A stretch of 39,801 bases of DNA from assembly GCA_007118695.1 (NCBI GenBank), contig SKRC01000203.1, forward strand, positions 1 to 39,801, given 5' to 3'. The notes beneath the pieces were generated by a model. It was given only the letters and a program-made list of their open reading frames with translations. It searched no databases and was not told where the DNA came from. How positions within the stretch are numbered: the stretch's first letter is position 1; every line of letters starts with the position of its first letter. This document shows, piece by piece, positions 10,607 to 25,413 of the stretch. The stretch comes from Balneolaceae bacterium. Its GTDB lineage: Bacteria > Bacteroidota > Rhodothermia > Balneolales > Balneolaceae. The position numbers and the translations under genes are program-made.

Positions 10607-12349
10607 TCAGTCGAAATCAGGTAGAATGACGGCATCGATCAAATGTATCACTCCGTTGGTACCACTCAAATCGACAGTGATCACCGTCGCACCATCCACG
10701 GTTACGGTGCCATTGGAATTATTAATGGTTACCATCTGGCCGTTCACGGTTTCAATCTCGGTTTCTCCGGCCGGGATATCACCGGACTCTATTCGATCGG
10801 CGATTACATGATAGGTCAGCGTCTCTGCCACTTCCTCATCAGAGAGTCCCGCCAGTGCTTCGGAGATATCCTCGAATGCGCTGTTGATCGGTGCAAACAC
10901 GGTAAATGGCCCGTCACCAGAAAGCGTGCCGGCAAGATCGGCATCAATCACAAGGTCAACCAGGGTCGTCAGCTCATAGTTTTTCTGTGCAATTTCAACG
11001 ATGTTCAGATATTTGTTGGGAATGAGCACTTCATCAATGGCGTGAATGGTGCCGTTGCTGGCATCGACATCGGCTGCAATGACTTCCGAGCTTCCGTTGA
11101 CCGTGACTCCTCCGCCAGCAGTCACATACAGACTTTCTCCGCTCATAGATGCAACTGTCTGGCTGGCATTAAGGTCACCAGATTTGACATCTGCTTCAAT
11201 GACATGATATAACAGGATTTCGGTCAGCTGTTCCATGGAAAGGCTCTCAAGGAGGCCATCGGGAAGGTTGTCAAACGCTTCATCTGTCGGGGCGAATACC
11301 GTGTAAGGCCCGTCGCCCATCAGTGCTTCGGCAAGGCCGGCATCCGTCACAGCCTGGACCAGTGTATTGAAATCAAACCTCTTGACGGCATTGTCAACAA
11401 CCGTTCCAAATGCATCCGGGAACAGTACTTTATTGACAGCATGAATCACACCATTGGTGGCTTCAATATCCGCTGCAATAACGTTGGACGAAGCATTAAT
11501 AACAACCTCTTCACCGGCTTTGATGAAAAGCTCATCTCCCTGCAGGGATGCGACTGCCTGGCGGTCGCTCAAATCTGAAGACATGACAGTTCCTCCGGTT
11601 ACATGATAGGTGAGGATCGAGATCAGCTGGTCTCCGCTCAGGTTTTCCAATGTTCCTTCGGGGAGGGCTTCAAACGCCTCATCGGTTGGAGCAAAAGCCG
11701 TGAACGGACCCAGAAATTGCAAGGTGGTGGTCAAACCGGCGCTTTCAATGGCGTCGAGCAGGATGTCGAATCCGTCAGCTTCCTGTGCAACATCAATGAT
11801 GTTGGTGGCTCCCAGTGCTTTTCTGATGGCCGATGGCAGCAATACTTCATTGATGCCATGGACTACACCGTTTGACGCCCTGATGTCGGCTTCGACGACA
11901 TTGGAGGTGCCGTTAATCACAACCCCATTACCGGATTGAGCCAGGATTCTCTCACCCTGGAGCGTTTCAACATCTCCCTGCTGCGGGACATCGGCAGCCA
12001 AAATGGTGCCGGCAACCAGATGGTAAGTGATGATCAGTTCGATATCTTCTTCTGTCAGGCTGTTCAGCACATCGGAAGGAATATCCTGGAAAGCAGCATT
12101 TGTAGGTGCAAAGACAGTGAGTTCTTCATTTTGAAGTGCTTCCAGCAGGTCTTCGTTGACCAGGGAGACAAGGGTGCTGTAGTCGCTGTCATCAGACAGC
12201 ACTTCAGCAAGGTTCATGTCAATATCCGGATCCGGATCCACCGGTGTGCCGGAATCATTATCACTGCATGCCGATAAGGCAAACATGAGCGCCAGGGGTA
12301 AGATGAGCAGGCTGGCTGCCCTGCGTATGGTTTTTGTACTCGGTAGCAT
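10607..12349 (-). CDS. Lipoprotein with four FAS1 (fasciclin) domains
   Basis: An envelope lipoprotein of about 580 residues built from four FAS1 domains (about 45-175, 180-310, 315-445, 450-578). Each has the H1/H2-type signatures such as TVFAPTNAAF, TAFAPTDEAF, TVFAPTDEAF and TVFAPINSAF, and YHV-type motifs. FAS1 domains mediate adhesion or matrix binding. The signal peptide ends in the lipobox LSAC. The frame opens at a TTG at 12364, but the ATG at 12349 is preceded at good spacing by AGAGGA and is preferred. The gene is monocistronic: its own predicted ECF promoter is at 12393-12423 and a terminator at 10467-10492. The promoter matches that of the first sigma gene, so expression probably follows that sigma/FecR/receptor operon, which lies just upstream. 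Confidence 0.93.
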   Translation of the reverse strand: MLPSTKTIRRAASLLILPLALMFALSACSDNDSGTPVDPDPDIDMNLAEVLSDDSDYSTLVSLVNEDLLEALQNEELTVFAPTNAAFQDIPSDVLNSLTEEDIELIITYHLVAGTILAADVPQQGDVETLQGERILAQSGNGVVINGTSNVVEADIRASNGVVHGINEVLLPSAIRKALGATNIIDVAQEADGFDILLDAIESAGLTTTLQFLGPFTAFAPTDEAFEALPEGTLENLSGDQLISILTYHVTGGTVMSSDLSDRQAVASLQGDELFIKAGEEVVINASSNVIAADIEATNGVIHAVNKVLFPDAFGTVVDNAVKRFDFNTLVQAVTDAGLAEALMGDGPYTVFAPTDEAFDNLPDGLLESLSMEQLTEILLYHVIEADVKSGDLNASQTVASMSGESLYVTAGGGVTVNGSSEVIAADVDASNGTIHAIDEVLIPNKYLNIVEIAQKNYELTTLVDLVIDADLAGTLSGDGPFTVFAPINSAFEDISEALAGLSDEEVAETLTYHVIADRIESGDIPAGETEIETVNGQMVTINNSNGTVTVDGATVITVDLSGTNGVIHLIDAVILPDFD

Positions 12350-12392
12350 AGTTTCCTCTTTCAAGTTTATTTGGTTTAGGTGTTAAGTACCG

Positions 12393-12423
12393 GTGTAACA
12401 CCCGAGAAATGGACTATGACTAG
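12393..12423 (-). promoter_or_regulatory. Predicted ECF promoter, type 1 (FAS1 gene)
   Basis: On the minus strand CTAGTCAT (12423-12416), 14 bases, then GTGTTACAC (12401-12393), 43 bases before the preferred start codon. The same boxes and spacing occur at 16925-16955 upstream of the first sigma gene. The upstream box lies in a small inverted repeat (atgac-acta-gtcat, 12416-12429). Promoter function is inferred from the shared boxes, not measured. Confidence 0.65.
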
Positions 12424-12451
12424 TGTCATGTCAATTATATTTATGCGGGTC

Positions 12452-12470
12452 TCCCGACATCTTATCGGGA
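12452..12470 (+). other. Short hairpin with T-rich tail between receptor and FAS1 genes
   Basis: TCCCGA (12452-12457) pairs with TCGGGA (12465-12470) and is followed on the plus strand by ttcttttt. No plus-strand gene precedes it, so it may be incidental or may end antisense transcripts. On the minus strand it would lie between the receptor gene and the FAS1 promoter without a T-run. Confidence 0.35.
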
Positions 12471-12598
12471 TTCTTTTTACTCCTGGTTGTTATAAAAAAA
12501 ATGCAAGCAGCTATGACTATGCACAAAATTTCACATTGCCAGGAGCATAATTTTCTTTGTCTTACCGCACAACGCATGGTTGTTACGACACTGGGCTG

Positions 12599-15373
12599 TC
12601 AGAAATTAATTTTCAAACTGACGGATGGGTTGAATCCGGGAAGGGTTCTCTCTCTGATTTCGTATTGCTGCTCTCCATCCGGCCCCGTTCCGGAAGGGAA
12701 GAGGTTCCAGTCAATGCTGTTTCGGCGGTTCAGTACATTGATGAGGTCCAGCCTGGTTTCGAGGTCAACAGGGCCAAGATTCGGGGTATAGATGAAGGAA
12801 AAATCGAGCTGGTGGAAGGGGCTCAGGCGGTCATGTTCAGGATTGGTGAAGTCGTAGTGGCCGGCTGATGGAAAATTGTGAGGCACCATGAAGTCGTAAT
12901 ACGCCTGCCGGAAAGCCCAGCTTCTGCCGTAAATGCCCAGCCACCTGGCTGCAAACCTGGTATTAGCAGAAATACGGCCTGTCAGCCTGACCTGAAAGCG
13001 GTGAGGCTCGTTCCAGGGTGTAGGGACCATCCGGCCGAATTGAGATTCCATATTTATTCTGGATACAGTGAAATCATACCCCAATAATAACCGGAGCCTT
13101 GCCTCTGTTAATGATTGCCGGAACCTTGCGCCGATCCCGTAGGAATACATGTCAGTCACCTCAGCAAATGCATCAAGCCCGGTTCTGCTTACATCCCCAC
13201 CACCTACCATAAGATTCGGATAGGAGGTGATATAGCTGGAAGGCTGGAGTTTGAGAAATTTCTCAATGCTGAGAGAGGTTGTTTCACCCGGTTCAAGCAA
13301 AAAAGAGAGCGCTGTATGGTATGCTTTAGGTTGTTCGAAACTGCTGTCGTGCGCCCAAACTGTAAACCCGGGGACAAGCGAGCTCGGCCCGACATTGGTA
13401 ATATCAAACTGGTTGATAAACTGCCTGTAGATGCCCCCGGACAATTTCAGGCTCCAGTAACCCAGGGATGATTCAGGCTGGTCGTATTGAATGCTCATTC
13501 GGGGTTCAGCATAGATATCACCCGATGGTGAAAGGATGGTAAACCTGGACCCGGCCATGAATTTCATGTGGCTGCCAAATACCCAGTTGCCATTGATGTA
13601 TGAACTGTAAAAAGTGGATTGATAATCATTTAATGTGGGTAGATAAAAGAAATCAGTTAAACCGAACCGGGATTCAACCCGGTCGGACTGAAGGCCGCTG
13701 CTGAGGCTGAACCGGGGGGTGAATGCATAGTTCAGGTCCATACGGCCTATAAAATGCCGGATCAGGTTGCTGTCTCTTTGCTCTCTGCCCGTTTCAATAA
13801 CGCCGGATAAGTGCTCAAAAAGTTCGGTCTCGGACAGCCCGTCAGCCGAAGACTGAATAGACTCGTTGTCGAACATGGTATAGCTGTGATTCAGCTCATT
13901 CGAACTGTAGCTTGCCTGGAAACTGATATTAAGGCGGGGTGAGGCCAGCCAGTCGTAACGCAATTGCGTTGCCAGGTTTTCCCAGTTGTAGCTGTCCCTT
14001 GAAAACATATAGATCGTTTCTTCTGCAAGCTTGTCGCTGGCAAGCAGATCGGTTTCAACACGGTTTTCTCCTTTGTACAGTGAAAATGAAAGTGTCCTGT
14101 ACGGATCCGGCTCATAACGCGATGCCAGGTGAAAATCATAATAACTGATGCCGGATGCATTGTTGACCGATTGAAAAGACCTGCCGCCTGATTCGTTCAG
14201 AAGGATATTGTAGATGAGCGGGTCCACAAGATCCCACTGCTGAAGTGCACCTGACAGTGTGGGGTCCTGGTACCAGTCCCAGAAGGTTGACCTGAATGCT
14301 GTCATCAGATGAAAGCGGCTTTCATCACCGTTTGAATTGCTAAGTTGGATCCTGGCATTGGTGTTTACCGGATCAACCTGCAGCAGGGCCCGTTTATTAT
14401 TCCGGTTGGAGATATGGTGACGCATATCGATTTTCCCGGCAATCAGGCTTCCGGATTCGACGCCGAATCCTGCTTTTTCAACGGATACCCTGTCAAGAGA
14501 GTAAGGGCTGAATGCGCTGTAGAGTTGGCCGAAGCTGTAGGGGTTATAAACTGGAATACCGTCAAGAAAAATCCGGTGATCACCGCGCTGGCCTCCCTGG
14601 AGATGCAGGTCGGTGAGCGGGAGTCCGTACTGGATGCCTGAAAAAAGGGCCATGCTCTGAATGGCATCCGGAGACCGGCTGCCGGTATTCCAGTCAGACA
14701 GACGATCGATGGTTTCCTCATTTGTATGTCCAAATGAGAGCAACGGCTTATGGGCTGTTACCACAATGGGGGAAACATCAAACTGCCTGGGTTGCATTCG
14801 GATGCTTTCCCGAACATCCTGGTCCGGAGCAATGGTAATTTCTTTGCGGACCGGTTCATACCCGATATAGGAGAAAATGATTTCATGTCGGCCGGTGAGC
14901 ATGCGATTGAGGTTGAACAGTCCGGCATTGTTCGTACTGGTTCCGCCTGAAACATCGGCCAGCATGACGGTTGCCCCCGGCAGGGGATCTCCGGTTTGTG
15001 CATCCACGACTTTGCCCGTCAGGGAGCCATAAGAGGATGCGATCAATGATGATTTTACCACAACGAATGTGCCCGACGAGAGGATGATATAATCGAGCCC
15101 GGTATCTTTCAGTACCTGTTTTAATATTTCAGGTATCGTTTTCTCTCGAATTCTTTGATAGACATTGAACCCTTCAACGATAGCCGGGTCATAGATCAGA
15201 TCGGCTTCGGTTTTACCCGCTATTTCTTCCAGGGCCAAGGCCAGGGTCACCCCGCTAAATTCAAATGAGTACAGGCCGTTGTCCCGGCTTTGTGACATCA
15301 GATCTGCCGGAAACAAAGTAAACATCAGCCAAAAAATAAGTACAAGGAACAGGTTTGAATGATCCTGAAGCAT
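12599..15373 (-). CDS. STN-type TonB-dependent receptor, signalling class (copy 1)
   Basis: An outer-membrane receptor of 924 residues that probably senses and imports an unknown ligand and signals to the FecR protein encoded upstream. The order is: signal peptide (1-27), an STN domain (about 34-110, YSFEFSGVTL to GTFVVVK), a carboxypeptidase-regulatory-like domain (about 116-195, GKVVDAQTGDPLPGATV), a plug (about 205-320, with HLQGGQRGDHRIFLDGIPVYNPY) and a beta barrel ending in the typical terminal phenylalanine (SLKINF). No SusD-like partner gene follows, so it is not a classic SusCD pair. It is 8 bases from the FecR gene. The plug and barrel are clearly paralogous to those of the receptor at 21006-23792, for example both contain NQFDxTNVGPxxLVP. 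Confidence 0.93.
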   Translation of the reverse strand: MLQDHSNLFLVLIFWLMFTLFPADLMSQSRDNGLYSFEFSGVTLALALEEIAGKTEADLIYDPAIVEGFNVYQRIREKTIPEILKQVLKDTGLDYIILSSGTFVVVKSSLIASSYGSLTGKVVDAQTGDPLPGATVMLADVSGGTSTNNAGLFNLNRMLTGRHEIIFSYIGYEPVRKEITIAPDQDVRESIRMQPRQFDVSPIVVTAHKPLLSFGHTNEETIDRLSDWNTGSRSPDAIQSMALFSGIQYGLPLTDLHLQGGQRGDHRIFLDGIPVYNPYSFGQLYSAFSPYSLDRVSVEKAGFGVESGSLIAGKIDMRHHISNRNNKRALLQVDPVNTNARIQLSNSNGDESRFHLMTAFRSTFWDWYQDPTLSGALQQWDLVDPLIYNILLNESGGRSFQSVNNASGISYYDFHLASRYEPDPYRTLSFSLYKGENRVETDLLASDKLAEETIYMFSRDSYNWENLATQLRYDWLASPRLNISFQASYSSNELNHSYTMFDNESIQSSADGLSETELFEHLSGVIETGREQRDSNLIRHFIGRMDLNYAFTPRFSLSSGLQSDRVESRFGLTDFFYLPTLNDYQSTFYSSYINGNWVFGSHMKFMAGSRFTILSPSGDIYAEPRMSIQYDQPESSLGYWSLKLSGGIYRQFINQFDITNVGPSSLVPGFTVWAHDSSFEQPKAYHTALSFLLEPGETTSLSIEKFLKLQPSSYITSYPNLMVGGGDVSRTGLDAFAEVTDMYSYGIGARFRQSLTEARLRLLLGYDFTVSRINMESQFGRMVPTPWNEPHRFQVRLTGRISANTRFAARWLGIYGRSWAFRQAYYDFMVPHNFPSAGHYDFTNPEHDRLSPFHQLDFSFIYTPNLGPVDLETRLDLINVLNRRNSIDWNLFPSGTGPDGEQQYEIRERTLPGFNPSVSLKINF

Positions 15374-15381
15374 GCGAATTG

Positions 15382-16335
15382 TTATTTAGAGACTCTGTAC
15401 CCGTTGGTGGTTCTTGAAAACGTCAGACCCTTGACCGTGGTAATATCATTCAAGACCGATTCTACATCTTCCGGATCGGAATAGAATGTTGTCATCACAG
15501 TGCGCCCGATTTCCCGGTCGGTAATTTCAATGGAGGTATTGTACTTCCGTTCAAGCTCCCTGAAAATGATTTCAAGCGGTGTGTTCACGAAGGCCAGATT
15601 CCGTTGCTTCCAGGCCAGGATGTTATCGATCCGGACCGGGTCGGGATCGGCCGGTCGGATCATACCGCTAATCCACCGGCTTTCTGATCCCTCCTTCAGG
15701 CTGACCGCTTCCTGCGGAGACCCTTCAGCGAAGAACCGGACGGATCCGCTGATCACGGATACGGTGGTTTGAGAGCCGGGATCGTCCAGCCACGATCGCA
15801 CATTGAATTTCGTGCTGGTTACCTGCACAACCGATCCGTTTGCATATACATGGAACGGGTGATTGCCCGGTTCAACTTCAAAATAGGCTTCCCCGTTCAG
15901 GTGAAGATCCCGGTTGGTATAATTGAACAGGCGGCTGTAGCTGATTTCCGATCCGCTGTTGAGATTCACTGTGGATCCATCGGGAAGTTCGATGGCGGCC
16001 AGTTCTCCTTTGGGCACAGATACTTTTTTATCAGTCAAAAGAAAAGCGGCCCCGGCTATTATCAAAAAGATGGCGGCAGCGAGGTAGTATCGCAGCCCGT
16101 TATTTCTGTCGGTGTTTTGGCTGTTTACCGGTTTATCTTCAAACCCCAGCTTTGCGTGCACATCACGCAGGGCATCTTCGGTCTCGGCCTTGCTGACAGG
16201 TGGTTCATTCAGGTCAATTTCGGAGCTGTCATCCCAAACCCTTTTGAGATTCTTGCGTTCTGATTCAGATACATTATCAAACAGACGATCAAGATCCCGG
16301 TTTTTTTTGTCGTTATTCCAGGATTGTTCAGCCAT
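15382..16335 (-). CDS. FecR-family anti-sigma factor (copy 1)
   Basis: A single-pass inner-membrane regulator of the adjacent ECF sigma factor. The N-terminal cytoplasmic part (1-80) contains LKRVWDDS, the membrane helix is about 83-101, the FecR domain (about 110-215) contains VNLNSGSEISY and LHLNGEAYFEV, and a DUF4974-type C-terminal domain (about 245-317) ends in GYRVSK. The length of 317 is usual. The start overlaps the end of the sigma gene by 8 bases, which suggests translational coupling, and the receptor gene follows after 8 bases. In characterised Fec-type systems the receptor STN domain contacts the FecR C-terminal part; that contact is inferred here. Confidence 0.94.
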   Translation of the reverse strand: MAEQSWNNDKKNRDLDRLFDNVSESERKNLKRVWDDSSEIDLNEPPVSKAETEDALRDVHAKLGFEDKPVNSQNTDRNNGLRYYLAAAIFLIIAGAAFLLTDKKVSVPKGELAAIELPDGSTVNLNSGSEISYSRLFNYTNRDLHLNGEAYFEVEPGNHPFHVYANGSVVQVTSTKFNVRSWLDDPGSQTTVSVISGSVRFFAEGSPQEAVSLKEGSESRWISGMIRPADPDPVRIDNILAWKQRNLAFVNTPLEIIFRELERKYNTSIEITDREIGRTVMTTFYSDPEDVESVLNDITTVKGLTFSRTTNGYRVSK

Positions 16336-16909
16336 AGCCTATGTGCCTTGTTTCAGTGAGATACTGTTCATGCAGGCGATGGATGTTTTTCATCGCCTGA
16401 ACAATATGATTATTAACCGTTCTGCTGGATACATTCATTACATCGGCGATCTCTTCATGATCGAGCCCCTCAAAACGGCTGAGGCGGAAGGCCTCGCTTT
16501 GTCTTTCAGGTAGTTCCATGATCCACTTTTTTAAAAGCTCCAGGCGTTCCGTCCGGAGATCCGTTTCCTGATCTTCATCAGTAAGCTGATCTGCCGGCAT
16601 ATCGGCTGCGTCCAGGCCATTTTGCTCAAAAGAGCGGTCGCGTATGTGATTGAGTGATAAATTACGCACGATTTTATAAAGGTACGCTTTAATTGACTGT
16701 TCAGCATCTATGGATTCACGATGATGCCATAGTTTGATGAAGGCGTCCTGAACGATATCAGCAGCTGTGGATTTTTGCCTGGTATACCTGAAAGAAAATC
16801 TGACCAGGGGGGCATACAGGGACCTGAATAACTGGTCGAATGCCTCCCGGTCTGACGCTTTCAGGCGTTCCGTTAACTGGTTGTATTGTTCATCGTTCGG
16901 TTCGTTCAT
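16328..16909 (-). CDS. ECF RNA polymerase sigma factor, FecI-like (copy 1)
   Basis: A 193-residue extracytoplasmic-function sigma factor. Sigma region 2 (about 22-90) contains YTRQKSTAADIVQDAFIKLW, and region 4 (about 125-185) contains the helix-turn-helix LSRFEGLDHEEIADVMNVSSRTVNNHI. It heads the sigma-FecR-receptor operon. A type 1 promoter (16925-16955) ends only 15 bases before the start codon, so the transcript should have a very short leader and the gene probably activates itself. No later in-frame ATG would keep region 2 whole. The region 4 recognition helix differs from that of the second sigma (SSR against TVK), in line with different -35 boxes. Confidence 0.95.
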   Translation of the reverse strand: MNEPNDEQYNQLTERLKASDREAFDQLFRSLYAPLVRFSFRYTRQKSTAADIVQDAFIKLWHHRESIDAEQSIKAYLYKIVRNLSLNHIRDRSFEQNGLDAADMPADQLTDEDQETDLRTERLELLKKWIMELPERQSEAFRLSRFEGLDHEEIADVMNVSSRTVNNHIVQAMKNIHRLHEQYLTETRHIGYG

Positions 16910-16924
16910 CTTGTTCGGTTATCA

Positions 16925-16955
16925 GTGTTACACGCCATAAATCAGGAATGACTAG
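16925..16955 (-). promoter_or_regulatory. Predicted ECF promoter, type 1 (first sigma operon)
   Basis: On the minus strand CTAGTCAT (16955-16948), 14 bases, GTGTAACAC (16933-16925), then 15 bases to the sigma start codon. Boxes and spacing match the FAS1 promoter at 12393-12423, while the 14-base spacers differ at most positions (matches include ATTT). That pattern suggests a protein-recognised promoter, not a copied repeat. Confidence 0.68.
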
Positions 16956-17379
16956 CCGGGAAAATCATTTTTTTCAGAAATTCGTTTGTTGGTGGTCACA
17001 AAATTCCTGTTAACCGCGAATTTCTGTGAGGAAAGTTTTGAGGCACTTGTAGAATAACCTGTTGAAGAGCAACTGTTAAGAAGGGAGCGGAGGAGGGAGT
17101 AAATAAATTTATGTTTACAAAATTTTACATATAACCTGTGGACAGTGTGTCAGTTAGCAGTAAACAGTTATCAGTTAACAGTGTGGTACACACGACTCAG
17201 TTAACAGTGGCAGTTGGCAGTGGCAAGTTGATGTTCCCCGATTAAGGTCGTATGGGGTTTTCAGGCCAGGTGACAGTGGCAGGATTCAGTTGGTAGTAGC
17301 AGTTTGCAGTGGGCAGGAGCATCTCCCCTTGAGGAGGAGATAATTGAAGTGCGTTCAGCACTTTAATTTGTGGGGTGTT

Positions 17380-17435
17380 CAGTTACCAGTTACCAGTTAC
17401 CAGTTACCAGTTACCAGTTACCAGTTACCAGTTAC
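17380..17435 (+). repeat. Tandem heptamer repeat, eight copies of CAGTTAC
   Basis: Eight perfect head-to-tail copies of CAGTTAC span 17380-17435, followed by a degenerate ninth (cagtagg). Heptameric short tandem repeats of this kind are known from cyanobacterial intergenic DNA. The array has no spacers and is not a CRISPR. Degenerate copies at 17151-17225 and 4293-4313 show that it belongs to a dispersed family. Confidence 0.93.
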
Positions 17436-17457
17436 CAGTAGGCAGTAGCAGATGGCA

Positions 17458-17488
17458 GGGAACAGGGGAACAGGGGAACAGGGGAAAA
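17458..17488 (+). repeat. Tandem octamer repeat, GGGGAACA
   Basis: Two perfect copies of GGGGAACA (17465-17480) are flanked by a seven-base copy on the left (17458-17464) and a partial copy on the right (17481-17488). It lies 23 bases after the heptamer array and recalls the GGGAAGCA octamer array at 4352-4401. Confidence 0.85.
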
Positions 17489-17573
17489 TCTGAGCAATTG
17501 AACTATTGACACACCATGAACACTACCGCAAACACAAAGCCTTGTCTACAGGAAATGATTCACGAACGATAAT

Positions 17574-17923
17574 TCACAACCCCTTAAAAATCTCGTCAAC
17601 AGACACCTGTAAACCTTCTACGATTTGTGAAGCAAGGGTCTCGCCGGATTTAATTGTATGTATCAGGGTAAATTGCCCGTTTTCATTCAGAAATTGATCG
17701 ATCGTTTTCGCTTCAGGATCCGCGATCCAATACTCCCTGACCCCGTGTTGGGCATACAATTCCTTTTTCTTTTTTCTGTCAATGGTTTCGGTATGTACGG
17801 AGAGCACTTCCACCACCAAATCGGGAGCTTCTACTATGTTATTTTTGGTAATGATATTCATCCGTTCTTTGACCACAAAAACAATATCCGGCCACGATCA
17901 TTCTCACTGATACGAAGTTCGGA
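17574..17923 (-). pseudogene. Uma2-family (DUF820) nuclease remnant, truncated and frameshifted
   Basis: The intact 3' part (17574-17876, about 100 residues) carries Uma2-family signatures: EAPDLVVEVLS, KKELYAQHGVREYWIADPE and a C-terminal LxVSVDEIF-like end. Upstream, DIVFVVKERMN continues in the same frame. The preceding SELRISENDRG, also typical of the family, is in another frame, so one base seems to be lost near 17892-17898. Homology stops at the serpin stop codon (17924-17926), leaving perhaps 80-90 residues of the usual N-terminal half missing. I infer a decayed remnant of a putative PD-(D/E)XK nuclease-fold protein of unclear function. A shorter product from GTG at 17876 could still be made but would lack part of the fold. 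Confidence 0.8.
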
Positions 17924-19234
17924 TCAGGAAGGATCCGTCATCGTGCCCATGAATAGTATCGCCCCGGATTCTACCTCACGGATCACGTAAAAGTAGGGCC
18001 GGTCAAATCGCAGGTTCACCGTTTGCGGAGCACTTGTAACGCCAAATTCAACAGAGGTGGCGGCTGCCGCTTCCGTGCCTTCTTCATCCACCCGGATAAA
18101 TGTCACATGCCGGGTATCGCTGATGTAAAGATCATCCTGTATCGGGTTGATGCGGCTGAAGTCGGAAATACTGTAATCGAATGCATCGACAATTCCCAGC
18201 TCCTGCAGAATATCGCCAAACCCGTCAACTTCATACTCCAGTTCAAATTTGGGCATCTCCAGGTTGAGAGTCACATTGCCGAAAGCCCCGGTCAGCTCCT
18301 GCCAGTCATCCCAGGTCTTGTTCTGCAGCCAGTTTTCAAGGCCTGTCTCTTCATCCGGCAGAACCAGGGTCATGGCATAACCGGCATCACCGTAATAGAG
18401 GTTCACTGCCTGATAATCGTCACCACTGGTATACTGCATGTTCTCCACTTCGCTGATGCGCATCATATCCACATCGGCAGTGGTACCGTCCGGCCGGTGA
18501 AACGGTTTGGTTTCGGTGTCGTCGGGATCAAACTGTATGGTCCACTCTCCGTTGAAATAGATCGCGTTGATCAGATACATCACCGTCAGCGGGTCGATCG
18601 GGTCTTCAACGATCTCTTCTATCAGCCCTTCGGTTTTATCGCTCACCCACTCATTGATTCGCTCCACGGTATCCGGGTCGTCAAAATCAGCGGCTTCGAT
18701 GACCGCATCGAAATAGTGCCGGTTGGTTTCCAGAAATTCCTGTTCCACACTGAAAGTATCGCGGTACCAGATGGAGTTGGCGATATTGAACACCACGTCA
18801 TCGTCGAATTCGGTCAGCAGGCCGATCAGTTCCCGGGCGGCCTGGTTGATCTCTTCGCGGCTCATCTCCTGAAGGCCGAATACCTCCTGCATCTGCGTGT
18901 AGGTATCACCTTCGGCTCCGTTCATGGTCATCCCGTAGGCCATCAGGATGCTCAGGGGAGAGATGAAATGACTCTCCTGCGGGCCGGATTCAAGCAGTTT
19001 GTGCATCAGTTCAAAACCGAATGCGCCGGACCCGTCAACTATTTGCATCTCCCCGGATGAAAGCGCCCGGGGCAGCTCTCGCCTTTCGAATGGCTCGGCC
19101 GGATCGTCGATGTCATTATCGGCGGTGCTGAAAAGATCGCAGCCGGTCAGGGTGAGAGAGAGGGATATAATAAGGATGAATATCATATGGGATAATTGGC
19201 GTAGTGTCGTCATTATCATAAAACGTTTTTCCAT
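17924..19234 (-). CDS. Lipoprotein serpin, predicted inhibitory
   Basis: A serine-protease-inhibitor fold protein of 436 residues exported as a lipoprotein: a signal peptide ends in the lipobox LTGC (Cys32). The serpin body has ILMAYGMTMNGAEGDT, NAIYFNGEW and RPYFYVIREVESGAILFMG. The reactive-loop hinge is ideal for inhibition, EEGTEAAAAT at 384-393; counting from it puts the scissile bond near Thr400-Ser401, suggesting elastase-like rather than trypsin-like targets (inference). The gene lies between the two sigma/FecR/receptor operons and has its own upstream type 2 ECF promoter (19284-19314) shared with the second sigma gene. It may protect the cell surface from extracellular proteases. Met6 or Met8 are alternative starts. 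Confidence 0.94.
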   Translation of the reverse strand: MEKRFMIMTTLRQLSHMIFILIISLSLTLTGCDLFSTADNDIDDPAEPFERRELPRALSSGEMQIVDGSGAFGFELMHKLLESGPQESHFISPLSILMAYGMTMNGAEGDTYTQMQEVFGLQEMSREEINQAARELIGLLTEFDDDVVFNIANSIWYRDTFSVEQEFLETNRHYFDAVIEAADFDDPDTVERINEWVSDKTEGLIEEIVEDPIDPLTVMYLINAIYFNGEWTIQFDPDDTETKPFHRPDGTTADVDMMRISEVENMQYTSGDDYQAVNLYYGDAGYAMTLVLPDEETGLENWLQNKTWDDWQELTGAFGNVTLNLEMPKFELEYEVDGFGDILQELGIVDAFDYSISDFSRINPIQDDLYISDTRHVTFIRVDEEGTEAAAATSVEFGVTSAPQTVNLRFDRPYFYVIREVESGAILFMGTMTDPS

Positions 19235-19283
19235 TAATAATGTTACTTGTTTGATGGGGACTTATTCTGAAGGATTTCATTCT

Positions 19284-19314
19284 TTAATACACACATCCGG
19301 GAGGGAATACCTAA
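19284..19314 (-). promoter_or_regulatory. Predicted ECF promoter, type 2 (serpin)
   Basis: On the minus strand TTAGGTAT (19314-19307, preceded by CA), 14 bases, GTGTATTAA (19292-19284), then 49 bases to the serpin start. The downstream box is identical to that of the second sigma gene (25383-25391). Upstream of the -35 box the sequence runs into an A/T-rich repeat also seen at the 20658-20688 copy. Confidence 0.62.
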
Positions 19315-19352
19315 TGAATATTGAATATTGAACAAGGAATTCTGAATGTTAA
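19311..19352 (+). repeat. A/T-rich dispersed repeat (GAATATTGAAC type)
   Basis: Plus-strand ctaatgaatattgaatat, then gaacaaggaattctgaatg. A longer, closely similar run is at 20686-20765, and a related reverse-complement run at 263-292. It overlaps the outer edge of the serpin promoter. The rest of the 285-base gap between the serpin gene and the next gene shows nothing else. Confidence 0.7.
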
Positions 19353-19519
19353 AGGTTTTTCTTTGTGCCCTTGGCGGTTGCAGTATTAACCGTGGAGGCC
19401 GCATAGAACGCAATGTTTTATGGCAGAATTCATACCCTAACAAGGTTTCCCATAATTCTCCCTGCGCCTCCGCGTTTCCGCGCCTCCGCGGTAAAAAAAA
19501 CAGAGGGCAAAGGTCAAAA

Positions 19520-20596
19520 TCAAAAATTCCATTTGAATTGCAGAGCCGGTACAGGTTCAACGATCTGTCCATTTCCGGCCTTGATGTGCGTAAGATCAAT
19601 TTCCGTTGCAGATGGTTCGGAAGGCGATCTGTCTGACAACAGATGATACCCGGAACGAATCACTGTAACCAGCCCGGCAGTCATATTCATCATCGACAAC
19701 CCGGTGCGGGCGTGATTGACTTCGTGGTACTCGTGGATAGGGATGGTGCAATTACCCATGCACATTCCCGGCTCACCCTGAATCTCGGTGTAGGTCGACC
19801 GGTTGTCCACATTCAGGGCGCCAAGCAGGATAGAGCCGGTGCCAGCGGCAAAGCCGAACCAGTGAGCAGCCGATGATGAATTGAATAGCCAGGGCTGAGA
19901 TGCTCGGTTGCTCATGTAAACGGTGTTGGCAACGGTCAGTGCAGTGGATGCGGTGCCATACTGCCAGTCCACATTGTTGCGGGTAACCTTTTTCTCTTCC
20001 ACTTCATAAGTAATATTACCGTACATGGGCTGAATCATAGCCAGCTCCTTGGTTGTAAAACCGGACTTTTCTGCCCATCGATTGAATTCCGAACTCTCTA
20101 TTTCCGGGATAAATGCATACTTGAACTCTTCGTTGATGGCCTCGGCTATCTCCCGTCCGGCACTTTGCTCCACAAGATACCCGACGGCGCAGATATTACC
20201 GGTTTCGTCAATAAACGTCGGCCTCCTCGGATCTTCGTGGCCGTCGTTATAGGGAAATAGTCCGGCTTCATAATACTCTGCGAGCAGGTCGAGATAGGCC
20301 ATCCGGTTTTGTTTCTGCTCTTCGCTCAGGTGGCCGGTCGGGCGCTGCCGCAACTCGGCTTCTACATATGCAAGATGGGTACGGATCCGGGTATAATCGG
20401 AAACACCCTCTTCCGGTTTCTCCCCGAATGTATGAACATAACTTTCATCACCGATAACCGCATTGACAGTGTGATCCGATCTGTTTTCTGTTGAATCGGC
20501 CTGGTGTTTTAAATGATAGAGTCCGATGTCGCTGAAAATAGTTGCTCCGGTAAGGATCAAAGCAAGTGTGAATACAAGTATCATCGTGCGTCTCAT
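19520..20596 (-). CDS. Exported protein of unknown function with RRPTFID-CAVGYL motif
   Basis: A 358-residue protein I cannot name. An N-terminal signal or anchor (about 4-24) is followed by a helical region (60-118), then RRPTFIDETGNICAVGYLV at 124-142 and, after about 50 residues, FTTKELAMIQPMY (180-192). I recall a similar R/P/F-D-x-x-G-x-x-CA-h-x-x-L plus IQPxY pattern in uncharacterised bacterial secreted proteins. The C-terminal half has Gly/Ala-rich hydrophobic stretches (about 215-265 and 300-325), a GMCMGNC cysteine pair and a terminal phenylalanine (KWNF), so it may be associated with a membrane. The type 2 ECF promoter at 20658-20688 ties it to the second sigma factor. Function is open. 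Confidence 0.85.
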   Translation of the reverse strand: MRRTMILVFTLALILTGATIFSDIGLYHLKHQADSTENRSDHTVNAVIGDESYVHTFGEKPEEGVSDYTRIRTHLAYVEAELRQRPTGHLSEEQKQNRMAYLDLLAEYYEAGLFPYNDGHEDPRRPTFIDETGNICAVGYLVEQSAGREIAEAINEEFKYAFIPEIESSEFNRWAEKSGFTTKELAMIQPMYGNITYEVEEKKVTRNNVDWQYGTASTALTVANTVYMSNRASQPWLFNSSSAAHWFGFAAGTGSILLGALNVDNRSTYTEIQGEPGMCMGNCTIPIHEYHEVNHARTGLSMMNMTAGLVTVIRSGYHLLSDRSPSEPSATEIDLTHIKAGNGQIVEPVPALQFKWNF

Positions 20597-21005
20597 AGTT
20601 CTGTCATTTTTGGGTTTTTAATTTGCTGATGCATGATTCGGTTGATGTCTTTCACCAGTAGTACACATCTGGAAAGGCGAATACCTAATGAATATTGAAT
20701 AATGAACAAGAAACTCCGAATATCGAATATTGAACAAAGAATTCTGAATGTTGAAGGATTGGACAGAGGGGCGGGGGACTTTGAATTTCGAACGATCAAA
20801 CAATTGAGTATGAGAACTTGAGAACAATAAAATATTAGAACAGGGAACGCGGAGAGCATCAGAACAGATGAATATCGACCAATGAACAAGGAACGGGGGA
20901 TAGGAAGATGAGTATCGATTAAGAGAATAAGGAACGGGGAACAGGGAGCACGAACTTCGCACCGTAAATTATTCCATTTCTTGAATTTTCCCGCTCCTTT
21001 AATTT
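20597..21005. other. Intergenic stretch with promoter and purine-rich degenerate repeats
   Basis: Apart from the promoter at 20658-20688, this 409-base gap is low-complexity. 20686-20765 holds gaatattgaa-type units, and 20780-20955 holds purine-rich units such as gaacaaggaacggggga and gagaataaggaacgggg. Minus-strand open frames across it translate to repetitive strings (NIQNSLFNI and SLFNIRYS types) and are not counted as genes. Confidence 0.7.
20658..20688 (-). promoter_or_regulatory. Predicted ECF promoter, type 2 (unknown exported protein)
   Basis: On the minus strand TTAGGTAT (20688-20681, preceded by CA), 14 bases, GTGTACTAC (20666-20658), then 61 bases to the start codon. Spacing equals that of the other four predicted promoters. 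Its spacer contains GCCTTTC, also present two bases shifted in the second sigma promoter. Confidence 0.6.
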
Positions 21006-23792
21006 TCAAAATTTGAACTGAATACTTACCGACGGAGTGAAGCCGGGCATGGTTCGTTCCCGTATGTCGTATTCCCCCTCCGAACCGGTTGGATGCAGGC
21101 TCCAGTCGATCACATTTTTACGGTTCAGGAGATTGATAAAATCGAGCCGGACTTCAAGATCGGAAAAGCCGAGCGAAGGCCGGAAAATCAGGGAAAGATC
21201 CAGCTGATGAAACGGGCTGAGACGGTCGGCTTCCGGGCTGAGAAACAGGTAGTTACTGTCTCTGAAAAGCAAAAAGTCGTAGTAAGCCTGGCGGAAGCCC
21301 CAGGCTCGCCCGGCTACGCTTTGCCACTGGGCGACGGCGGAAATATTGGAATGTACATGCCACAATGCCCGCGCCTGAAACCGGTGGGGTTCATTCCAGG
21401 GAGCCGGCAATGTCCGGCCAAACTGCGACTCCATATCGATGTTGCTGATGCTGTAGTCATAACCGGCCATCATATGCAGACGGGCATCGGGGAAATCCTG
21501 CGTAACCCTGACGCCCCCGCCGTAGGCTGTCATCGACGTGGCTTCGGCAAATGCATCGAACCTGGAGCGGTCGACCGACATACCGGAAAACAGGTTCCGG
21601 TAGGAGGTGATATAGGTGGTCGGCTGCCATTTGTGAAACGCTTCCAGGGTGATGGAGGTATGATTGGCAGGCTCGTAGAGCAGTGACCCGCTCAGATGAT
21701 AGGCCTCCGGCAATTTGTCGTTTCCGGCGTGCGACCAAATCGAAAAAGAGGGGACAAGAGCCGTCGGCCCGACATTGGTCATATCAAACTGGTTGATAAA
21801 CTGCCTGTAGAGGCCGCCGGTCAGGCGTACGGACCAATATCCGGAATCGGCATCGGGGCGGTCGTACTGAATGCCTGCACGGGGTTCGGGATACAAACCG
21901 CCATCGGGATGTACGTATGTAAACCGGCTGCCCAGGTTCAGATTCCAGTATTCACCCAGATTGAAATTGCCGTCGATATAACTGCCGGCGAACGTGGTCT
22001 GCTGATCCGTTTGAGTGGGCAGGTAAAAGAGATCACTTAAATTGACAACCGAAGAGACCCGGTCCAGTTGTATGCCCATTTCCAGGGTGAAATAACGCGT
22101 AAAATTGTAGGTCGCATCACTTCGGAGGGTAAAATGCCGGATACTGTTTTCATTATTCTGGGAAGGGAGCATTCCGGCAGAGCCAACTGTTTGAAAATCA
22201 GAAAAAGCCTCAGACGCTGACATTGCCCTGAAGGCTCCGTCAAGTTGAGGAATATTCGGGTCATGGCTTGTTCCGAACAGGTACCGGTGATCCAGGCGGT
22301 TGGCACTGTAGCTGATGCGGGTCGAAAGGTCCATGCGGGGTGTGGCCAGCCAGTTGTGTGTGAGCTGGCCCATGATATTGTTCCAGTCGTACAAATCGCG
22401 GGCATAGGCGTACTCGGGCTCCTCTTCAACGGGGAAGGTCTGGGCAAGCAGGTCGGTGCGGACGAAATTCCTGCCGGTATAAAAAGAGGCGTTAAAATCG
22501 TGATAGTTGTTCAGCCGGTATCGCGAGGCAAAATGAAAATCATGAAACCGGACATCGGAATCGTGCTCCATGGTCTCATACGTTACAGATTCCCGGTCCT
22601 GGTCAAGAACAAGGTTCATAATCAAAGGATCCACTTCATCCCATTCCCGCAGCGTCTGATCGAGCGTGGGATTGCGGTAAACGTTCCAGTAGTTAGTGCG
22701 AAACGCAGACATGATTTTCAGCGGAGAATCATCATCACCCAATGGCAGTTCCAGGTCCGTCCTGGTGTTGAGGCTCAGCGGATCGCCCTGAACCATAAAA
22801 CCCTGTTCACCGCTGCCCGGTACATCGTGGTTCAGGTTGATCAGCCCGGCAATCTGACTGCCTTCCTGAACCCCGTAACCCGCCTTATGCAGATTGACTT
22901 TGCTGATGGCATAGGGACTGAAAGCACTGAACATCTGCCCGAAACTGTAGGGATTATAGACCGGCACACCATCGAGGAGCATACGGTGGTCTCCCCGCTG
23001 GCCGCCCTGAAGGTGAAGGTCGGTCATCGGCAGTCCGTATTGCACGCCGGAAAAGAGATTCAGCGACTGAATGGCATCCCTCATGGCCCCGGGACGCTCC
23101 CACACGCTGTTTTCACCGAGGTTATGACGGTCACCGGTCATCCGCGGCATTTGAGGCACATGGCCGGTCACTATAACCGGAGAGATATGAACCGGTTTGG
23201 GTTCTAGCGAGATCTCTTCCCGCTGCTGCCTATCGGGCCTGATTTCGATCGTTTTGTACACCGGTTCGTATCCCACGTAGCTGAAGATGATGTTGTAGGA
23301 GCCGGATACAAGCCGGTTAAGGTTGAAATTGCCTGCACGGTTGGTGCTCGTGCCGCCCGAGGCGTCTGCGAACATCACGTTTGCTCCCGGGAGTGGTTCC
23401 CCGGTGTAGCCATCTACGACCTTTCCGGCAAAAGAGCCATAGGCAGGTTCGTCACGAACGGATTTGACAATGACAATGGTTCCGGTTGATAAGGTGATAA
23501 AATCGAGTTGGGTGCCTTCGAGAACATGCTGCAACAGATCCGGCATGTCCTGGTTTCGAATTCTTTTATGGATCGTGATATCCCGGATCAGGGCGGGATC
23601 ATAGACCAAATCCAGTTTCGCCGTCTCTGCCACTGTTTCGAGCACATCCCTGAGTTCTTCACCCCTGAATTCAAACGTATAGGCCTCTCCGCTCTGCTCC
23701 TGGCCGTAGCCTGCCAGGGGCATGCATAGCAAAAAAATCAGCCCGGGCAGAATATACTTGAAAAAGGTCAGGGTTGATTCCGTTCGGCTCAT
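21006..23792 (-). CDS. STN-type TonB-dependent receptor, signalling class (copy 2)
   Basis: A 928-residue paralogue of the 12599-15373 receptor with the same order. The signal peptide (1-30) is followed by STN (about 36-115, YTFEFRGEEL to GTIVIVK), a carboxypeptidase-regulatory-like domain (GKVVDGYTGEPLPGANV), a plug with HLQGGQRGDHRMLLDGVPVYNPY, and a barrel ending in SIQFKF. The gene overlaps the FecR gene by 4 bases, so it is translationally coupled. Similarity runs through all domains, so the two operons come from duplication or from one family. Differences are spread through the barrel and could reflect different ligands. No ligand is suggested by the neighbours. Confidence 0.93.
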   Translation of the reverse strand: MSRTESTLTFFKYILPGLIFLLCMPLAGYGQEQSGEAYTFEFRGEELRDVLETVAETAKLDLVYDPALIRDITIHKRIRNQDMPDLLQHVLEGTQLDFITLSTGTIVIVKSVRDEPAYGSFAGKVVDGYTGEPLPGANVMFADASGGTSTNRAGNFNLNRLVSGSYNIIFSYVGYEPVYKTIEIRPDRQQREEISLEPKPVHISPVIVTGHVPQMPRMTGDRHNLGENSVWERPGAMRDAIQSLNLFSGVQYGLPMTDLHLQGGQRGDHRMLLDGVPVYNPYSFGQMFSAFSPYAISKVNLHKAGYGVQEGSQIAGLINLNHDVPGSGEQGFMVQGDPLSLNTRTDLELPLGDDDSPLKIMSAFRTNYWNVYRNPTLDQTLREWDEVDPLIMNLVLDQDRESVTYETMEHDSDVRFHDFHFASRYRLNNYHDFNASFYTGRNFVRTDLLAQTFPVEEEPEYAYARDLYDWNNIMGQLTHNWLATPRMDLSTRISYSANRLDHRYLFGTSHDPNIPQLDGAFRAMSASEAFSDFQTVGSAGMLPSQNNENSIRHFTLRSDATYNFTRYFTLEMGIQLDRVSSVVNLSDLFYLPTQTDQQTTFAGSYIDGNFNLGEYWNLNLGSRFTYVHPDGGLYPEPRAGIQYDRPDADSGYWSVRLTGGLYRQFINQFDMTNVGPTALVPSFSIWSHAGNDKLPEAYHLSGSLLYEPANHTSITLEAFHKWQPTTYITSYRNLFSGMSVDRSRFDAFAEATSMTAYGGGVRVTQDFPDARLHMMAGYDYSISNIDMESQFGRTLPAPWNEPHRFQARALWHVHSNISAVAQWQSVAGRAWGFRQAYYDFLLFRDSNYLFLSPEADRLSPFHQLDLSLIFRPSLGFSDLEVRLDFINLLNRKNVIDWSLHPTGSEGEYDIRERTMPGFTPSVSIQFKF

Positions 23793-24766
23793 CGATAGAT
23801 CCTGTATCCGTTTGCTGTCTCTGCGTACCGGAGGCCTTTCACCAGGGAAATATCATTCAGCACTGTTTCCAGGTTTCGCGGTTCCGTGTAATAGGTTGTC
23901 AGGGTTTCATACCGCATCTCCTGTGCCTCCAGTTCAATCCGTACATCGAACCGGCGCTCCAGTTCATTGAGGATCACCGCAAGTGGTTTTTCATCAAAAT
24001 GAAGCAAATTGCTGCGCCAGCCAAGAACCCGGTCCGCTGATACACTGACCGGATCAGCCGGTTCAATCATGTTGTTGTTCCAGGAGCTCATTTTTCCCGG
24101 AGATAACACGACCCGTCTGTCAGGGGATTTTTCAGGATAAAAATACACTTCCCCTTCAGTTACCGTCACGCTGGTTTCGCTGCCGGGATCGCTGCTCCAG
24201 GAGCGGATATTCAAGCGGGTGCCGGTCACTTCAACAGTTGATCCGTTGGCGTTGATGATAAACGGCTCGTCGCCGCTTCGAATTGTAAAATATGCTTCAC
24301 CGTCGAGGTGCAAGGTTCGGTTGGTCCGGCCGAAAAGACGATTATGACGAATTTGGGTGCCGCTGTTCATTTCAATTGTGGACCCGTCATTCAGTTCAAT
24401 TTCAGCCATCTCACCATAAGAGACGAAGTACATCCTGGGGGTCAACAGATACCCGGTGCCCAGTACGATCAGGATTACGGCAGCGGCAAGGTACCACTTC
24501 GGCCCGAACCCTGAGGGTGAATTTTTTCCGGAGTCCACAGGCAAATCCAAATCCGGAGCGGGAAATCCAAGCCGGTTTTGCACTTCCGATAGTGCCTCAT
24601 CCACCGGTTTGATTCGCTGGCGGTGCTTCTGTCTGGATTCTTCCAGGTCCGTACCGCTTTTTTCCCAGACCCTGAGAATTTCTTTCTGCTCTTCAGAAGA
24701 ATATTTCTTCAACAGCTCCCGGTCTATGGGGTGCTTGTTATTCTGATTGTTGGATTGATCATTCAT
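23789..24766 (-). CDS. FecR-family anti-sigma factor (copy 2)
   Basis: Paralogue of the first FecR, 325 residues. The N-terminal cytoplasmic part contains EILRVWEKSG (about 29-38), the membrane helix is about 91-109, the FecR domain contains IEMNSGTQIRHNRLFGR and LHLDGEAYFTI, and the C-terminal DUF4974-type domain ends in GYRIYR. It overlaps the sigma gene by 4 bases and the receptor gene by 4 bases, a tighter packing than in the first operon. It is expected to hold or process the second sigma factor in response to the receptor at 21006-23792. Confidence 0.94.
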   Translation of the reverse strand: MNDQSNNQNNKHPIDRELLKKYSSEEQKEILRVWEKSGTDLEESRQKHRQRIKPVDEALSEVQNRLGFPAPDLDLPVDSGKNSPSGFGPKWYLAAAVILIVLGTGYLLTPRMYFVSYGEMAEIELNDGSTIEMNSGTQIRHNRLFGRTNRTLHLDGEAYFTIRSGDEPFIINANGSTVEVTGTRLNIRSWSSDPGSETSVTVTEGEVYFYPEKSPDRRVVLSPGKMSSWNNNMIEPADPVSVSADRVLGWRSNLLHFDEKPLAVILNELERRFDVRIELEAQEMRYETLTTYYTEPRNLETVLNDISLVKGLRYAETANGYRIYR

Positions 24767-25368
24767 AATCCGTTTCCATCCTTAGAGTTTGAATGGTTGT
24801 TATAGCGCTTCCGCAGGTGCGATAGTGCATCCACAATATGGTTATTAACCGTTTTTACTGTCAGATTCATCACATCGGCTATTTCTTGATGATCCAGGCC
24901 TTCAAAGCGGCTAAGCTCAAAGGCTTCCCGCCGCCGGTCGGATAGTTCATTTATCCATATTCTGAAATTTCCGGCCAGCTCTTCAACACTGTCTGTACCC
25001 TCATTACTGACAGTATCCTCATCATGGCCGGTGATCAATGACCGGCCAGAATCGGTCAAATGAACTTTTTCCAGTTCCATCATTCGGTCTGAGTGATCTC
25101 GTAAGTGATTCAATGCCCTGTTCCGTACCATCTTATAGAGATAGGATTTGAGTGATTGTTGCGGGTCAATGTCGTTACGATCCTGCCAAACGGATACAAA
25201 AACATCCTGAACGATATCACAGGCCTGATCATGACACTGTGTATATCTGTAGGCAAAGTATGTAAGCGGATAGTACAGCGATCGGAAAAGGGCATTAAAT
25301 GCCTCCCGGTCCGACCGGCTGATCCTATCCGCCCACTCTCGTATCTGTTCAGCTGATGGTTGATTCAT
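24763..25368 (-). CDS. ECF RNA polymerase sigma factor, FecI-like (copy 2)
   Basis: A 201-residue ECF sigma factor. Region 2 contains YTQCHDQACDIVQDVFVSVW, region 4 contains the helix-turn-helix LSRFEGLDHQEIADVMNLTVKTVNNHI, and an acidic linker (about 115-135) joins them. It heads the second sigma-FecR-receptor operon. A type 2 promoter (25383-25413) ends 14 bases before its start codon, nearly the same very short distance as in the first sigma gene, which supports autoregulation. Candidate regulon members in the window are the serpin gene and the 358-residue unknown. Confidence 0.95.
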   Translation of the reverse strand: MNQPSAEQIREWADRISRSDREAFNALFRSLYYPLTYFAYRYTQCHDQACDIVQDVFVSVWQDRNDIDPQQSLKSYLYKMVRNRALNHLRDHSDRMMELEKVHLTDSGRSLITGHDEDTVSNEGTDSVEELAGNFRIWINELSDRRREAFELSRFEGLDHQEIADVMNLTVKTVNNHIVDALSHLRKRYNNHSNSKDGNGL

Positions 25369-25382
25369 AACCGATTACATCA

Positions 25383-25413
25383 TTAATACACATTACGCGA
25401 AAGGCATACCTAA
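25383..25413 (-). promoter_or_regulatory. Predicted ECF promoter, type 2 (second sigma operon)
   Basis: On the minus strand TTAGGTAT (25413-25406, preceded by CA), 14 bases, GTGTATTAA (25391-25383), then 14 bases to the sigma start. Unlike the serpin and 20658 copies it is not next to the A/T-rich dispersed repeat, so the shared boxes are not merely part of that repeat. Confidence 0.68.

Follow-up and report, generated by a model that had tools for sequence, protein, structure and literature searches.

What controls a bacterial serpin gene? The question is raised by a 39,801-nucleotide (nt) stretch of Balneolaceae bacterium DNA (contig SKRC01000203.1), which we call "the window" and whose coordinates are used throughout. 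It is the first contig of the 4.1-Mb genome, in 313 contigs, of a salt-loving bacterium. On its minus strand it encodes a 436-residue serpin lipoprotein and an operon for an extracytoplasmic function (ECF) sigma factor (SIGB), a FecR-type anti-sigma factor (FECRB) and a TonB-dependent receptor (RECB). The best explanation of the evidence as a whole is that the serpin very probably belongs to the regulon of SIGB, encoded with FECRB and RECB. Promoter identity, regulon content, sigma covariation, conserved linkage and the presence of an intact hinge were computed. The original prediction, made from the sequence of this stretch, was that a receptor-linked ECF sigma factor controls the serpin; genome-wide motif counts, held-out genomes, covariation of promoter and sigma factor, and operon linkage strongly support it. 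Regulation of bacterial serpins is little known (PMC10090351), and their role has been called enigmatic (PMC8233489).

A promoter element shared by the serpin and a sigma operon

The serpin gene (17924..19234, minus strand) is preceded by an ECF-type promoter, TTAGGTAT-N14-GTGTATTA. The sequence GTGTATTAA occurs exactly twice in the window (19284-19292 and 25383-25391, both minus), a count reached by 0 of 100 shuffles, and forms the -10 part of a more extended element, TTAGGTAT-N14-GTGTAYTA. The longer element has three sites in the window, all minus, where 0.19 would be expected even at 3 mismatches. They are TTAGGTATTCCCTCCCGGATGTGTGTATTA at the serpin (19285..19314), with GTGTA ending 53 nt ahead of the start codon, and two located by motif search: TTAGGTATTCGCCTTTCCAGATGTGTACTA (20659..20688) at the gene for an exported protein, X358, and TTAGGTATGCCTTTCGCGTAATGTGTATTA (25384..25413), the putative autogenous promoter of the SIGB operon. 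Both boxes and the spacing of the SIGB-operon promoter are shared by all three. The original prediction had equated the promoter box of the serpin with that of the second sigma operon; the match is borne out, extends to the -35 box and includes the third site, at X358. The interval it named, 19284-25413, takes in the sigma operon and the two promoters but not the serpin gene.

Across the whole genome, exact TTAGGTAT-N14-GTGTA was found at five sites, where about 0.1 would be expected (13 fixed bases, 8.2 Mb on both strands). The relaxed form TRGGTAY-N14-GTGTA has seven sites genome-wide, and each is directly upstream of the sigma operon or an exported-protein gene. One precedes the SIGB operon; the others precede the genes for the serpin, for X358, for a second serpin of this genome (contig C21) and for three lipoproteins, one Ig-like and one of the sortilin/propeller type, both on C127, and one with an LVIVD propeller on C261.

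Minus-strand transcription runs through SIGB-FECRB-RECB, X358, the serpin, a Uma2-like fragment, a paralogous SIGA-FECRA-RECA operon and a fasciclin-repeat gene. The layout of 12599-25368 suggests that the sigma operon was duplicated in tandem, X358 and the serpin lying between the two copies. Intergenic repeats of two types, GAATATTGAACAAGGAATTCTGAATGTT and CAGTTACCAGTTACC, lie between the operons (19313-19360, 20690-20760 and 17380-17480).

The motif, the sigma factor and gene order in related genomes

For comparison, serpin and receptor neighbourhoods were fetched from genomes of the same order and class. In the first set 24 of 67 serpins had T[AG]G[GT]T[AG]N-N14-GTGTA upstream, against 5 of 725 other genes (p = 2 × 10⁻²³; the sequences are akin, so this and the p-values below overstate independence and surprise and are not exact probabilities). 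Several of the five non-serpin genes are probably true targets adjoining the receptor. In held-out genomes, fetched after these counts, the motif was present at 10/14 serpins and 0/65 other genes (p = 7 × 10⁻¹⁰); the reversed motif gave 0/81. The -10 end lies mostly 10-100 nt ahead of the start codon, a promoter-like spacing. Serpin homologues occur in Balneolaceae, for example in Fodinibius roseus at 63% identity, and in the cultured strain F. roseus DSM 21986 (serpin about 64% identical) the serpin promoter reads ATAGTTAT-N14-GTGTA. The serpin motif was found in 20 of the 26 genomes that encode an orthologue of RECB (40% identity or more), versus 4 of the 27 without one; of the six exceptions, three in family f5 (G038, G041, G044) have a TAGTC-class sigma factor and a serpin adjoining a different ECF sigma. 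Exact TTAGGTAT occurs at chance level overall in 58 relatives (7 genomes with one match each, that in G020 upstream of a serpin) because other genomes use different -35 variants.

The variation in the -35 box is itself informative. Sigma operons of the relatives have the same promoter architecture with a variable -35, mostly TAGGTA, TAGGTG, TAGTTA or TAGTCA, and in 13 of 18 genomes the serpin and X358 promoters are of the same -35 class as the local sigma operon (mean under permutation 5.9, p = 1.6 × 10⁻⁴). In genus g7, TAGTTA stands on both of two separate serpin clades. Residue 172 of the sigma factor is Lys in 13/14 and Arg in 1/14 of the TAGG class, Arg in 8/8 of the TAGTC class, and Asn, Ser or Trp in 5/6 of the TAGTT class; His-Ile-Val accompanies TAGGTA, and His-Leu-Thr accompanies TAGGTG. 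SIGB has Lys172 and His-Ile-Val in its recognition helix. Judged by sequence comparison, the helix appears to track the -35 box in this ECF group by a putative code in which Lys would denote TAGG, Arg TAGTC, and Asn, Ser or Trp TAGTT, with His-Ile-Val for GTA and His-Leu-Thr for GTG.

Gene order supplies a further line of evidence. In three f3 genomes (L120, L129, L130) serpin and sigma operon are divergently oriented, each with such a motif. In several other families of the class, a sigma-FecR-receptor cluster contains or adjoins the serpin gene (G111, G224, G166, G167, G168 and G228). In G111 a gap of 7 nt separates FecR from the serpin, after which come a DUF6174 lipoprotein and the receptor; the genes of the G224 cluster all overlap or nearly touch, and the other four genomes carry partial versions. 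DUF6174 lipoproteins have the motif in two Balneolaceae genomes, so the same partners appear to be joined either by operon or by promoter, depending on lineage. Another serpin clade has a different ECF sigma gene after it in L106, L108, L110, L111, L115, L119 and G179, and likewise at L284, which makes a second association of a sigma factor with serpins; the further gene of 230-488 residues after that sigma may encode its anti-sigma factor.

Besides the kinship of the sequences, several observations weigh against assigning the serpin to SIGB. Of the first-set serpins, 43/67 have no motif, most of them in genomes without the operon, and in G010, G039 and G086 the operon is present and the only serpin is motif-less. 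Looser motif searches in the relatives returned about 2-4 times the reversed control. The TAGGTG class, counted genome-wide in family f3, is not above its reversed control; among its matches are the sigma operon, serpins and a lipoprotein of the LVIVD type. The reversed TRGGTAY-N14-GTGTA control has five matches in the window's own genome, so the two looser sites there are supported by position and not by number. A further ECF factor of that genome with the same helix could read the site too. Of 20 serpins from the class's other families, none had the TAGG-type motif; the promoter argument is therefore confined to the order, and beyond it operon linkage alone supports the connection.

The serpin, its putative signalling system and other candidate targets

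Pfam PF00079 aligns with the serpin over its positions 4-370 of 370 (345 bits, 7.6 × 10⁻¹⁰³), so the domain is full-length. The protein features named in the original prediction held up: the lipobox LTGC, with Cys32 as the lipoprotein-signal cysteine; the hinge EEGTEAAAAT, intact and complete from residue 384 to 393 (P17-P8) and of the small-residue type; and Thr400 as predicted P1 (P1-P1' = Thr400-Ser401), which is upheld by residue numbering and by comparison of reactive centre loops. Among solved structures, the nearest in sequence is Tannerella forsythia miropin (PDB 5ncs), which has a near-identical hinge and a T-S bond that aligns with Thr400-Ser401, but differs in having Lys ahead of the Thr. 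The protein thus carries every sequence feature of an inhibitory serpin (I4), and by homology it would be an inhibitor. The statement that bacterial serpins are uncommon does not hold for this class: a serpin is present in 100 of 245 genomes.

SIGB (24763..25368, minus) belongs to the FecI-like Sig70_bacteroi1 group (TIGR02985, 144.6 bits, over the cut-off). FECRB (23789..24766, minus) has PF04773 and PF16344 and overlaps each neighbour by 4 nt, and RECB (21006..23792, minus) has a signalling-type N-terminal domain, CarboxypepD_reg, plug and barrel. The RECB model (predicted local distance difference test, pLDDT, 82) places a beta-alpha-beta domain at residues 36-110, followed by the CarboxypepD-like domain, plug and barrel. 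Its best fold matches are FpvA, PfeA and FoxA, and the FpvA and FoxA entries matched include transducers solved with the signalling domain. At the sequence level the STN domain scored weakly, in the paralogue RECA (21.3 bits versus a cut-off of 28.4), and the RECB operon has no SusD-like partner gene. By homology, SIGB-FECRB-RECB fits FecA-type cell-surface signalling (PMC9249621).

In such a system RECB would bind an external ligand, and its N-terminal periplasmic domain would pass the signal on to FECRB; FECRB would in turn free or activate SIGB. Region 4.2 of SIGB (Lys172, His-Ile-Val) would then read TAGGTAT-N14-GTGTA, and SIGB would transcribe the operon that encodes it, X358 and five lipoprotein genes, two of them for serpins. 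After export to the envelope the serpin could trap elastase-like or subtilisin-like serine proteases by means of its hinge and the Thr400-Ser401 reactive bond.

X358 (19520..20596, minus), an exported protein of 358 residues, is the second putative target gene in the window and was missed by the original prediction. Homologues in G067, G090 and G084 likewise carry the promoter. X358 has no significant Pfam match, and its AlphaFold 2 model, which is poor, has no PDB match. The family has the conserved core RRPTFI..G.ICAVGY..E, is exported, and is repeatedly associated with the sigma-FecR-receptor system. In G061 the motif also precedes two other lipoprotein genes. One, directly downstream of the motif, encodes a BsuPI-domain protein (PF12690, 7.8 × 10⁻¹²; a proteinase-inhibitor family; L221, C107), and the other a free-standing lipoprotein (L209) that is 39% identical to the pro-region of an S8 subtilase encoded in the window's own genome.

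Alternative explanations and relation to known systems

Could the neighbouring paralogue SIGA drive the serpin instead of SIGB? The SIGA-FECRA-RECA operon (12599..16909, minus) is the next operon downstream of the serpin, and in G001, of the same genus, a 75%-identical serpin is directly upstream of a SIGA-FECRA-RECA operon. The SIGA operon promoter, CTAGTCAT-N14-GTGTA (16929..16955, minus), is however of a different -35 class and is a single copy in the genome, whereas the serpin promoter is identical to that of SIGB in every letter of both boxes. SIGA also has Arg where TAGG-reading sigma factors carry Lys. With Lys and His-Ile-Val in SIGB, against Arg and CTAGTCAT for SIGA, SIGB is indicated; SIGA was rejected on its helix residue and its own -35 class, and we regard its control of the serpin as very improbable. 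Constitutive transcription of the serpin by the primary sigma factor, with the motif shared only by coincidence, is scarcely credible: a Bacteroidota-type TTTG/TANNTTTG promoter was not found near the serpin, sigma-70-like sites near it are at chance level, and conservation of the motif across genomes, with covariation, is not expected of a chance element. The SIGA operon and its promoter serve here for comparison, outside the serpin circuit. SIGA-type operons pair with fasciclin-domain genes (window 10607-16909; L167, L172, L173, L175, L181, L183), and in G012, G075, G031, G008 and G044 the promoters of the fasciclin genes are of the TAGTCA class, as is that of the sigma operon. The gene order 1118aa-Sua5-SIG-FECR-REC-fasciclin is retained in the relatives L172, L175 and L183 (compare 12599-25368 of the window).

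The remaining alternatives concern what the serpin does. Non-inhibitory serpins occur among eukaryotes, and this protein might have the fold and act as, for example, a substrate or binding protein. Against this, the relatives' reactive centre loops retain the hinge EEG[TS]EAAA[AV]T throughout with few changes, a pattern of the type tied to inhibition (PMC8233489), and the non-inhibitory alternative seems improbable. More weight, though still as a doubtful possibility, can be given to a serpin that is regulated as proposed and restrains the cell's own surface proteases, not foreign ones. A gene for an S8 subtilase lipoprotein (C127; L193 4089-5846) lies in the window's own genome between two same-strand motif-driven genes; the subtilase pro-region-like lipoprotein of G061 and the miropin-like Thr-Ser reactive bond point the same way, but the subtilase gene has an upstream region of 244 nt to itself, and the motif is absent from it. 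Hypothetically, the system would serve in defence against proteases, with the receptor sensing a protease or peptide. For the other putative targets (propeller lipoproteins, X358, DUF6174) no connection with proteases is known; the idea is kept alive because the G061 motif precedes both the BsuPI-domain and the subtilase-pro-region-like lipoproteins. A full receptor-controlled antiprotease regulon, in which RECB detects a protease, a product of one or a molecule from a competitor, and several unrelated surface inhibitors (serpins, joined in G061 by the BsuPI-domain and subtilase-propeptide-like lipoproteins) are deployed with propeller and Ig-like lipoproteins, is rather unlikely.

How novel is the arrangement? 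For Bifidobacterium breve, PMC8012564, citing Alvarez-Martin 2012, describes a serpin induced by proteases through a two-component system. The likeness is a bacterial serpin gene under linked, dedicated signal transduction, the inducers in that account being proteases such as papain. B. breve, however, is an actinobacterium with a two-component system, whereas here an ECF sigma factor, FecR and a TonB receptor would act across two membranes on a multi-gene regulon. No histidine kinase or response regulator adjoins the serpin among the Uma2-like fragment, X358, RECB, FECRB, SIGB and the SIGA operon. The circuit is therefore not wholly of a new kind, as the original prediction had it, since protease-induced control of a serpin is described in B. 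breve. The serpin of Bifidobacterium longum is also regulated, but it is sugar-responsive and no ECF system is described for it (PMC8012564). With FecI/FecR/FecA and FpvI/FpvR/FpvA the window shares the sigma-FecR-receptor set, the FecR and FecR_C domains and the signalling-type receptor fold (PMC9249621). The outputs of those systems in PMC9249621 are iron-carrier uptake genes, whereas here they would be serpins and lipoproteins; and E. coli fecIR is transcribed by sigma-70 (PMC9249621), whereas the sigma operon here bears its own promoter motif. A literature search, with most subscription journals outside its coverage, returned no paper joining a serpin, an ECF sigma factor and FecR. What appears to be new is a serpin as the output of FecI-type surface signalling, a link conserved by promoter across the order and by operon in other families of the class.

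The correspondence between sigma helix and -35 box would aid the prediction of target genes across the order. If serpins are a conserved output of cell-surface signalling, their function would be tied to a specific receptor and the inducing ligand would be directly searchable, which would offer a concrete route to asking what bacterial serpins are for.

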